This document shows positions 34,277 through 36,336 of a stretch of DNA of 64,000 nucleotides, one piece after another; within the stretch, counting starts at the first letter, position 1; the number at the start of each line of letters is the position of its first letter. This DNA comes from Paramagnetospirillum caucaseum (GTDB taxonomy: Bacteria > Pseudomonadota > Alphaproteobacteria > Rhodospirillales > Magnetospirillaceae). The notes below the pieces were generated by a model, which made no database searches, was not told the DNA's origin, and was given only the letters and a program-made list of their open reading frames with translations. The position numbers were made by a program, and so were the translations under genes. The stretch spans positions 1 through 64,000 of the forward strand of contig NZ_AONQ01000009.1 of NCBI RefSeq assembly GCF_000342045.1, given 5' to 3'.

Positions 34277-34636
34277 CTACTGGCAGTCGGAAACCGCTAC
34301 CCTGCAACCCTTGCCGCAGGCTTCCAGCGCGTTGCTCTTGGCCTCGCCCTCGGTGCTGCCCCAGCCCACGCCGGTGTAGTCCTTGGACGTGGCATAGGCG
34401 CCGCAGGTATCGTAACGCACCGCCACCTTGCAACTGCTGTTGCCGGCCTTCTTGCACTCGCGCACCGCGTCGATGCCGGCCTCCTCGCGGGTGGAACCGG
34501 TACCGACGCCGTAGCCCACCTCGCTGGCCTTGGTCGCGTCGGCGTCGTCGACGGCGATGGCGCCCGCCGCGCGGGCGGCGGGGTTTCCCAGCAGCAGGCC
34601 GAGAGCCAGCGTAGCGGCGAAGAATGATTTCATCAT
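34277..34636 (-). CDS. Small secreted cysteine-containing protein (DUF4189-like)
   Basis: A 119-residue exported protein. After a signal peptide (about 1-24) come two similar halves, GTGSTREEAGIDAVRECKKAG..CKVAVRYDTCGAYATS and GWGSTEGEAKSNALEACGKGCRVAVSDCQ, each with paired cysteines. The pattern G.G.ST...A...AL..C resembles DUF4189. The disulfides suggest a stable periplasmic or surface protein. Two ATG codons (34636, 34633) follow AAAGGGG. It is convergent with the lipoprotein operon and seems monocistronic. Function unknown. Confidence 0.7.
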   Translation of the reverse strand: MMKSFFAATLALGLLLGNPAARAAGAIAVDDADATKASEVGYGVGTGSTREEAGIDAVRECKKAGNSSCKVAVRYDTCGAYATSKDYTGVGWGSTEGEAKSNALEACGKGCRVAVSDCQ

Positions 34637-34685
34637 GATGCCCCTTTCGTGTTGATCCGGAGTCACGTTGGGAGGGGGCGGCAGG

Positions 34686-34731: not shown

Positions 34732-36111
34732 TCAGCAGCCGAAGGCGAAGGCGGTTTCCGTGCCGTCGTCCCAGCCGTCCCACATGTAATCCGGGGCGAT
34801 GCCGTCGGCGATCAGGCGGAAGGCGTACTGGGCCTGATCCAGATAGAAGCCGCAATAGGCCCCGATCTCCTCCATGCCGCCGTTGGCCTCGTGCGCCTCG
34901 GCGGGACAGGGCGAGCCGCAGAAATGCCGCACCGGACAGGTGGAGCAAGCCTTGATGTCCTCGACCTTGCGCCCCGTCACCAGCTTGAAGGCCGGGCTTT
35001 CCAGCACGTCCTCGACCTTGTCGGTGAACAGGTTGCCGCCGGCGAAGGCCGGCAGGCCGATGAACTCCGAGCACGGGAACAGCGAGCCGTCGGGGGCCAG
35101 GGCGAAGAACGACCGGCCGCCGCCGCAGGGCGAGATGTCGCACATCAGCCGCCGCGCGGTGGGGGCCAGGATGGAGATCAGGATATTGACGAAATTGGCC
35201 ACCACCAGCTTGCGCCCGGTTTCCCGGTAGAGCTGGTGGGTGCGGTCGAGCGCCGCCAGATAGGCCTTGGACACCGCTTGGTCCTCGGCCCAGGCGTTCT
35301 GTCCGCCCGGCTGGGTGCAGCGGACCACGTTGAGCATGCAGGCCGGAACCTCCTCGGCGTGGAGGAATTCCACCATCTCGGTCAGCTGCCCCAGATTCTC
35401 GCGGTTCATGGTGCAGATGACGTTGAAGCCGGCATAGCCCCTGAGCCTGCGGATAGCGTCCACCGTGGACTGGAAGACGCCGTCGCCGGTCCAGCGCTTG
35501 CGGGAACGGTCGGCCACCTCGGCGACGGGAGCGTCCAGCGACAGGCCGATGCCGCAGCCGCGCGACGTCAGGAACGCCACCGCCGCGTCGTCCAGCAGGG
35601 TGGCGTTGGTCTGCACCCCGAAGCGGAAGCGGTCGGAATAGAGGTCGATGGCCTCGAACATGGCGTCGCGGTTGAGCAGCGGCTCGGCGCCGTGGAAGAT
35701 GATCTGCGGCTTGCGGCCTTCGGGTACCGTACGGCGGAAATATTCGTCGAGCCGCGCCATGGCGTCGAGCAGCTTCTCGCGGCTCATATGCTCGCCGGTC
35801 TTGCGCATTTTCGGCGGAATGTAGCAGTACGAGCAGTCGAGGTTGCAGCGTTCCGTCGGATTGAAATAGACCGCCGAGGGCTTCAGGTGAAAGCGCAGCA
35901 TGTCCATCTCGCGGGCGAAATCGTCCCGCTTGGCGCGCCAGTCGCGTTCCAGCGCGCCGTCGTCCAGGACCTTGTCCATCTCGTCCTTGCGCACCAGCGC
36001 CCAGAAGGCGTTGTCCGCGTCGATCAGGGCGGTGTAGTCGGCATGGCCGATCTCGAACCGCTGGAGGCCGTCGGGAAGACGGCCCCCAAGGATGGGGGCC
36101 GCCTGATTCAC
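34732..36111 (-). CDS. Radical SAM/SPASM peptide-modifying enzyme (CbpB-like)
   Basis: A 459-residue radical SAM enzyme. The SAM-binding [4Fe-4S] motif CxxxCxxC lies at Cys89, 93 and 96 (ERCNLDCSYCYIPP); the GAEP motif and Q-T-N-A-T strand of the barrel follow. A C-terminal SPASM region (about 330-430) with CDISPCGGG, LFPCSEF, CSTCPVRHFCGSPCP and AYCGF would hold two auxiliary clusters. SPASM enzymes commonly form thioether or C-C links in ribosomal peptides. The start is GTG 36111, whose GTGA overlaps the stop of the 43-residue peptide gene, a precursor-maturase arrangement. I recall an NCBIfam group named CbpB for such an enzyme but cannot verify membership. The protein ends in Gly-Cys. Confidence 0.8.
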   Translation of the reverse strand: MNQAAPILGGRLPDGLQRFEIGHADYTALIDADNAFWALVRKDEMDKVLDDGALERDWRAKRDDFAREMDMLRFHLKPSAVYFNPTERCNLDCSYCYIPPKMRKTGEHMSREKLLDAMARLDEYFRRTVPEGRKPQIIFHGAEPLLNRDAMFEAIDLYSDRFRFGVQTNATLLDDAAVAFLTSRGCGIGLSLDAPVAEVADRSRKRWTGDGVFQSTVDAIRRLRGYAGFNVICTMNRENLGQLTEMVEFLHAEEVPACMLNVVRCTQPGGQNAWAEDQAVSKAYLAALDRTHQLYRETGRKLVVANFVNILISILAPTARRLMCDISPCGGGRSFFALAPDGSLFPCSEFIGLPAFAGGNLFTDKVEDVLESPAFKLVTGRKVEDIKACSTCPVRHFCGSPCPAEAHEANGGMEEIGAYCGFYLDQAQYAFRLIADGIAPDYMWDGWDDGTETAFAFGC

Positions 36112-36239
36112 CGCGTCACCTGCCCGGGCTTCACCTGCTTGTCCATCAGGACGTAATGGGACAGGCCGGTGCCCTCGGCATCGCAGGTCTTGCGGCTGGC
36201 GATGACGGCGGGGCGGGGTTTGGTTTCAGTCCTGGTCAT
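36108..36239 (-). CDS. 43-residue candidate modified-peptide precursor (CbpA-like)
   Basis: A short gene read from the complement of 36239 down to 36108: MTRTETKPRPAVIASR, then KTCDAEGTGLSHYVLMD, then KQVKPGQVTR. A basic leader precedes a core with one cysteine (residue 19), three glycines and an aromatic HYV. The ATG has the ribosome-binding site GAAGGA nine bases upstream. Its stop overlaps the radical SAM start (GTGA), which fixes the frame and couples translation. The cobalamin riboswitch lies just upstream. I recall precursor peptides with a related GLSHYVLMD core paired with CbpB enzymes. Product and activity are unknown. Confidence 0.75.
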   Translation of the reverse strand: MTRTETKPRPAVIASRKTCDAEGTGLSHYVLMDKQVKPGQVTR

Positions 36240-36336
36240 GGCGATAATCCTTCACGTTAGCCAAAGGGGCTGTCGGCCAAGACGCGGATGCGCCTTCGCC
36301 GAAACCCTTTGCCATCGGATTCCGCCCCTCGTTCAA

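Follow-up and report, generated by a model that had tools for sequence, protein, structure and literature searches.

What is the task of a 43-residue peptide whose gene runs into that of a radical SAM/SPASM enzyme? The question is raised by a locus of Paramagnetospirillum caucaseum (assembly GCF_000342045.1; order Rhodospirillales, below the home order), which lies in a window of 64,000 nucleotides, positions 1–64,000 of contig NZ_AONQ01000009.1. An original prediction, made from the letters of the window, had read the pair as precursor and maturase of a ribosomally synthesized and post-translationally modified peptide (RiPP) and had pointed to related pairs named CbpA and CbpB; the functional lead followed here was absent from it and comes from a riboswitch and from gene context. 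The pair, its conservation, a cobalamin riboswitch and a setting of cobalt or cobalamin (B12) genes are found in distant lineages. Taken together, these features suggest that cbpA-cbpB is a two-gene RiPP operon under a cobalamin riboswitch, the product of which assists cobalt acquisition or delivery for B12 synthesis. We give this reading, built from sequence comparison, a probability of about 0.56. How cells get scarce cobalt to the corrin ring is understood in part only, and if the reading is true, a B12-switched RiPP amid cobalt import and B12 operons would be a new kind of player.

The gene pair and its riboswitch

The short frame proposed as the precursor gene is real, opens with ATG on the minus strand, and ends in a TGA that shares 4 nucleotides with the GTG start of cbpB, the overlap that had been described. 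The ribosome-binding site fared less well, as the GAAGG that lies 9 nucleotides ahead of the ATG is plausible and not strong. The names CbpA and CbpB proved to be the right ones: the NCBIfam models TIGR04164 (cobo_pep) and TIGR04163 (rSAM_cobopep) stand for the CbpA precursor and for CbpB, respectively, and a hidden Markov model (HMM) search, which had been proposed for the peptide, places each protein above the cut-off of its model (Table 1). The window pair is thus a clear member of both curated families, in agreement with the predicted organisation of a RiPP precursor and a SPASM maturase. Ahead of the two genes there is also a cobalamin riboswitch that the prediction had not mentioned, and the order on the minus strand is aptamer, an 88-nucleotide stretch, cbpA and cbpB.

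Table 1 Features of the cbpA-cbpB locus, in positions of the window
Feature	Position	Strand	Basis
cbpA, 43-residue RiPP precursor	36108..36239	-	ATG start; TIGR04164 59.8 bits (cut-off 35; model 1–25 of 25), residues 12–36
Conserved core codons C19 to M32 (CDAEGTGLSHYVLM)	36144..36185	-	Conservation over 53 loci
cbpB, radical SAM/SPASM enzyme, presumed maturase, 459 residues	34732..36111	-	TIGR04163 764.1 bits (cut-off 375; model 1–428 of 428); Pfam
Cobalamin riboswitch aptamer RF00174	36328..36512	-	cmscan 75.2 bits (gathering score 31.5; model 1–189 of 189); 88 nucleotides before the cbpA start
Candidate expression platform, hairpins A and B	36267..36324	-	ViennaRNA folds

Our comparison covers 53 cbpB loci with duplicates removed, namely 28 from Alphaproteobacteria, 10 from other classes of Pseudomonadota and 15 from Nitrospirota; L004 is the same place as L043, and L005 the same as L052, and each of these pairs is counted once (L-numbers denote loci, G-numbers genomes, and a carrier is a genome with cbpB). 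A cobalamin riboswitch lies directly upstream of cbpA, on the same strand, in 38 of the 53 loci, and where it is present the distance from the end of the aptamer to the core Cys codon ranges from 134 to 307 nucleotides (median 166). For the ten pseudomonadotan loci outside Alphaproteobacteria we had set down beforehand the expectation that a riboswitch or cobalt/B12 genes would be found nearby, and indeed all ten have the riboswitch. The 15 loci in which it is not directly upstream are 12 Nitrospirota loci that form a separate clade (clade B, described below), L053 of genome G008, the plasmid locus L038, and L093, the sequence of which starts 133 nucleotides before cbpA, so that a riboswitch could not be seen. 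Upstream of cbpA on the plasmid, cmscan at E-values up to 10 gave just two hits, both to families of eukaryotic RNA and both well short of the gathering score. Thirteen of the 15, namely the 12 clade B loci and G008, where the pair stands before cobS-cobT, sit among cobalt or B12 genes.

The stretch between aptamer and cbpA can be folded into two hairpins, A (about 36300–36324) and B (about 36267–36307), with coordinates derived from ViennaRNA folds of selected segments, that share the segment GGGTTTCG. In these models the hairpins would be mutually exclusive, and they are a candidate switch for which we infer the direction of switching. By analogy with the usual behaviour of this riboswitch class, B12 would repress the operon: the leader is predicted to shut it off when B12 is plentiful, and CbpA would be made when B12 is short. 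The two-hairpin sequence pattern was found in 27 of the 30 loci in which it was tried, the exceptions being L060, L062 and L038. The hairpins overlap to a varying extent, with little in common in L058 and L063, and a T run follows hairpin B in L094, L095 and L053. The last of these, in G008, is of some interest in itself (L053:8100–8282), in that the platform and the T run are kept though no aptamer is recognised and the genome has no RF00174 match; perhaps the sensor has decayed or is a different one.

A nearly fixed core and its presumed maturase

All 53 loci have a CbpA frame ahead of cbpB, including L099, where the first core pattern missed it and a wider one recovered it. A chance open reading frame is thereby ruled out, and no homologous locus without the short frame was found. 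Cys19 and the core, both of which had been pointed out from the window alone, are conserved through the whole set: within the motif C-x5-GL[ST]H[YF][VI][LM], Cys19, Gly25, Leu26 and His28 are identical in 53 of 53 loci, position 27 is Ser or Thr, 29 Tyr or Phe, 30 Val or Ile, and 31 Leu or Met, the extra residue of one row being left out of the position count. There are 33 distinct cores among the 53. The N-terminal portion of CbpA is variable, as judged from an alignment of 29 rows taken from 43. A search of all six frames of the 64-kb window finds the core motif once, and nine control loci without cbpB (76,097 bases) do not contain it. In a codon comparison, the ratio of replacement to synonymous change (pN/pS) in the core is 0.137, 0.126 and 0.054 in groups of 13, 14 and 12 rows, respectively (39 of the 43 rows); synonymous changes thus far exceed replacements, which points to purifying selection on the core.

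This constancy bears on whether CbpA might be an antimicrobial or signalling RiPP, as many SPASM-modified peptides are antibiotics or signals. Antibiotic peptides usually diversify, whereas the CbpA core is nearly fixed across two phyla; moreover, no genes for export or immunity came to light, and the operon has a B12 riboswitch as its leader. We regard such a role as having only a very slim chance of being correct.

CbpB contains the Pfam domains Radical_SAM (PF04055) and SPASM (PF13186). The radical SAM cysteines C89, C93 and C96 (CX3CX2C) do not vary among 42 CbpB sequences, nor do C324, C329, C347, C389, C392, C398, C402 and C420, and the enzyme thus keeps the radical SAM and SPASM cysteines of known SPASM maturases (dynobactin DynA, ranthipeptide PapB, the SCIFF maturase CteB and the anaerobic sulfatase maturase). 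We take the spacing of these cysteines to resemble the one seen in SPASM proteins whose two auxiliary clusters are fully ligated, such as the anaerobic sulfatase maturase. With cysteines for two auxiliary iron-sulphur clusters, CbpB would modify the C-x5-GL[ST]H[YF] core, in which Cys19 and the GL[ST]H[YF] segment are the candidate modification sites. The nearest solved sequences are 5wgg, presumably CteB (the SCIFF maturase), 4k36/4k37 (anaerobic sulfatase-maturating enzyme) and 9gm3 (ChlB). The next-best models for CbpB are DynA (129.6 bits), PapB (117.9 bits) and sulfatase maturase (107.3 bits), and because all of these scores are far under the respective cut-offs, the product of CbpB cannot be read off these enzymes. 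PapB-type thioethers join Cys to an acidic residue. A linkage of this kind is unlikely in CbpA since the acidic positions, +1 to +3 from Cys19, vary over the 53 loci; if CbpA carries a cross-link, it probably differs from the PapB type.

Cobalt and B12 genes around the pair in two phyla

Of the 297 home-order genomes searched, 26 exceed the TIGR04163 cut-off, and the scores leave a gap between 672 and 111 bits. A sample of 398 genomes from the phylum gave 11 carriers (the home genome, that of the window, among them); the others are 14 of 198 Nitrospirota genomes (one of which has two copies), 1 of 199 in the order of Rhodoblastus and 1 of 10 in the family of G008. Named relatives are a Phaeospirillum metagenome-assembled genome (MAG; 95%), a Telmatospirillum MAG, Rhodoblastus acidophilus and a Nitrospirae MAG, and plasmid pHY1 of Methylovirgula sp. 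HY1 carries a CbpB at 67% identity in a copy annotated as cbpA/cbpB. One query for viral carriers found none. In the CbpB tree, a long branch (support 100/100) splits the 12 Nitrospirota rows of clade B, which are 40–44% identical to the CbpB of the window, from all others; three further Nitrospirota rows are on the other side.

The precursors of clade B appear to be a type of their own. Two of them, L100 and L096, were scanned, and neither matched any NCBIfam model at E-values up to 10, unlike the enzymes of the same loci, which pass TIGR04163. TIGR04164 therefore misses at least two clade B precursors, and the deep Nitrospirota form extends the family past the reach of the current precursor model. 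A class-wide search with TIGR04164 found it in 1 of 385 genomes, namely the home genome.

The gene company of clade B is uniform in theme. Relatives of cobalamin or cobalt genes stand alongside in 12 of 12 loci, with neighbours assigned by BLAST clustering except for L100, one neighbour of L096 and one of L102, which were scanned with HMMs. In eight loci, relatives of CbiQ and CbiO precede cbpAB; the other four have CobD and CbiX (L102, where cbpA starts 8 or 17 nucleotides after cbiX, depending on the start chosen), relatives of a tetrapyrrole methylase and CbiD (L099), or relatives of a methylase and CbiG (L007 and L103). A riboswitch heads the operon in 6 of the 12 loci and lies directly before cbpA in none. 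As to the remaining six, L097 is cut by its contig, the riboswitch is about 7 kb upstream in L099 and after cbpB in L007 and L103, and none was found in L102 and L106 within the stretch taken. L007 and L103 are two clade B copies of cbpAB in one Nitrospirota genome (G678), each followed by a riboswitch, and a receptor-like frame, judged by eye, comes next in L007.

The annotated operon of L100 reads riboswitch, PF13557 beta-barrel, CbiM, a 115-residue frame, CbiQ, CbiO, cbpA, cbpB, CobO, CbiD, methylases and CbiG. The 115-residue frame stands in the place of CbiN and gave no match. CbiM-Q-O is the sole transporter identified, and no exporter or protease is annotated. The beta-barrel (L100:4242–5018, by Pfam), which is the first gene after the riboswitch and comes just before cbiM, is a candidate cobalt channel, and clustering finds relatives of it in L096, L098, L101, L104 and L105.

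In L100 the cbpB frame overlaps that of the next gene, a cobA/CobO-type adenosyltransferase, after which come CbiD and methylases. This arrangement would suit a modified peptide that serves corrin assembly or adenosylation, for example as a redox-active cofactor for the reduction of Co(II) to Co(I). RiPP redox cofactors do exist, such as pyrroloquinoline quinone (PQQ); cbpAB lies near pqqADE on the Methylovirgula plasmid, and a highly conserved core would befit a cofactor. However, no CobO was seen adjoining cbpAB in the alphaproteobacterial loci, which were listed by eye, and it is import of cobalt and its insertion that return from lineage to lineage. We therefore consider a part in corrin chemistry unlikely, if well worth keeping in mind. 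On the plasmid itself (L038:9822–14771) the distance from cbpAB to pqqA-pqqD-pqqE, another RiPP cofactor operon, is about 2 kb.

Cobalt insertion comes into view in G008, where dnaJ comes after cbpAB and then cobS and cobT, which encode cobaltochelatase subunits. CobT of this genome scores 757.6 bits, just under the NCBIfam cut-off of 759.05, and matches two CobT Pfam models. A tie of CbpAB to one type of chelatase was considered and rejected, given CobN in the 26 home-order carriers and CbiX in the Nitrospirota operons examined.

The regulon of the riboswitch leads to the same subject. In the home genome three cobalamin riboswitches were detected, at cbpAB, before a CbiM/CbiQ cobalt importer and before an OprB-family porin (CbiO of the home genome, like CbiN and argC elsewhere in this text, is assigned by eye). 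Eight carriers have two detected riboswitches and no more, and in each of them the one away from cbpAB stands ahead of a cobalt or Ni/Co transporter, though weak extra riboswitches may escape the stricter filters of these per-genome counts and G275 is 79% complete. That transporter gene is cbiM in G110, G140, G190, G255, G275 and G195, encodes a CbiM-domain protein in G070 and is that of a NicO-type Ni/Co transporter in G146; in G110, G195, G146 and G070 the cbpAB riboswitch is itself the second match, taken from separate locus scans. It is notable that the same pairing is kept despite the change in importer type. The OprB-family porin also stands behind a cobalamin riboswitch in G213 (L151; home genome, L066, C7:68359–68610), and a possible function for it is that of an outer-membrane route for cobalt.

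Expression under B12 shortage would also be expected if the pair bypassed a B12-dependent process in the manner of B12-independent isozymes, and isozymes of B12-dependent enzymes are a known class of cobalamin riboswitch target (PMC3766115). But neither a cobalt import or B12 operon, as in Nitrospirota, nor a place before cobS-cobT, as in G008, is where one would expect a bypass, and the remaining detected riboswitch regulon in the eight genomes is cobalt import. A bypass is thus improbable in our view, only somewhat less so than an antimicrobial or signalling role.

Weighing a role in cobalt supply

Several observations count against a role in cobalt supply. Among the alphaproteobacterial loci, listed by eye, nothing cobalt-specific adjoins cbpAB except in G008, and there cmscan at E-values up to 10 found nothing upstream of cbpA. 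The Methylovirgula plasmid copy has no detectable riboswitch or cobalt gene in its annotated surroundings. The simple two-riboswitch regulon applies to eight of the 26 home-order carriers; G008 has no riboswitch and the other 17 have 3 to 17, and among these 17 further targets were annotated in the home genome and, for one riboswitch, in G213 (L151). Furthermore, among the 11 non-carriers that have one riboswitch each, it stands immediately ahead of cbiM in 7; because riboswitches control cobalt importers in non-carriers too, the shared regulon is only suggestive. Co-occurrence is no more decisive. CbiM was above cut-off in 21 of 26 home-order carriers compared to 17 of 31 non-carriers, a weak link that is confounded by kinship, while CobN (above cut-off) and CobW each occur in all 26 carriers and in 28 of the 31 non-carriers. 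As these two are common in non-carriers as well, CbpAB looks accessory. Finally, a single Cys and a single His make a sparse ligand set for tight binding of Co(II).

CobN in 26 of 26 carriers does indicate that these bacteria probably insert cobalt themselves and make their B12 from it. CobW is a known counterpart to the role proposed here. As described in PMC7689651, it is a cobalt chaperone that serves the late pathway, and CbpAB would act at the same step, the supply of cobalt for B12; CobW is, unlike CbpAB, a GTPase. CbpAB as a substitute for CobW or for a chelatase is rejected for the home order, where all 26 carriers have CobW and CobN; in Nitrospirota, the CobW model gave no match in any of the six carriers tested (of 14).

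Where the product acts is suggested by what surrounds its gene. No signal peptide is apparent by eye in CbpA, and beside the window pair no linked exporter, protease or receptor was identified, the downstream DUF4189 gene being assigned by Pfam and the others, such as an argC-like gene upstream, by eye; the predicted absence of an adjacent transporter or protease thus holds among the annotated neighbours. Since neither the window pair nor the annotated Nitrospirota operon shows an exporter, protease or signal peptide, the product would most likely act in the cytosol. There, a cobalt-binding peptide could retain imported Co(II) or carry it from the importer towards the chelatase. A secreted cobalophore would instead have to leave through a general exporter and return through co-regulated outer-membrane proteins. 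Candidates for the return are at hand in the OprB porin (home genome and G213) and the PF13557 beta-barrel (L100), and a 2021 review states that no cobalt-specific outer-membrane receptor has been confirmed (PMC7689651). With no exporter or protease at the window pair or in the L100 operon, and no signal peptide seen in CbpA, secretion seems improbable to us, if marginally less so than a bypass of B12.

Within the preferred reading, a role in cobalt supply for B12 synthesis, the parts differ in strength. Direct binding of cobalt by the Cys and His of the modified core is a guess to which we would give somewhat less than even odds. Much the same odds go to the full proposal, in which CbpA/CbpB would be the first ribosomal peptide system devoted to cobalt, acting in the cytosol as a metallophore or chaperone that is matured by a radical SAM enzyme and switched by B12 itself, present in two phyla and found beside both early (CbiX) and late (CobNST) cobalt insertion.

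Precedents for peptides of this kind come from copper. Methanobactins and bufferins are Cys-bearing modified peptides for copper acquisition or protection, linked to MNIO enzymes, and bufferins have Sec signal peptides (PMC12452194). The main text of that paper does not contain the word cobalt. CbpA has a radical SAM partner and, unlike bufferins, no signal peptide by eye. Among the open-access literature matches listed, no paper dealt with the function or product of CbpA/CbpB or with a cobalt-dedicated RiPP, and the pair is not named in the available parts of PMC5682303, PMC9600662, PMC9062424, PMC9549626, PMC3766115, PMC7689651 and PMC12452194. The names cobo_pep and rSAM_cobopep, which are all we go by here, suggest that the authors of the models had already seen a link to cobalamin, and for this reason we claim the window locus just as a further member of named families. 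What appears to be new is the clade B type of precursor and, across two phyla, the connection of the pair with cobalt import and insertion. If true, the reading would give a named family a testable role, and it would point to a short and almost invariant core as the substrate of radical SAM chemistry.

Two neighbouring genes deserve a brief mention. In the window, the gene 65 nucleotides past cbpB (34277–34666, minus strand) encodes a DUF4189 protein that, judged by eye, is likely to have a signal peptide. BLAST clustering finds its relatives flanking cbpB in just three loci, the window included, which disfavours it as a partner of the pair. In several clade B operons, an HD-domain protein of about 262 residues (L096:13388–14176 and relatives) is encoded among the B12 methylases.

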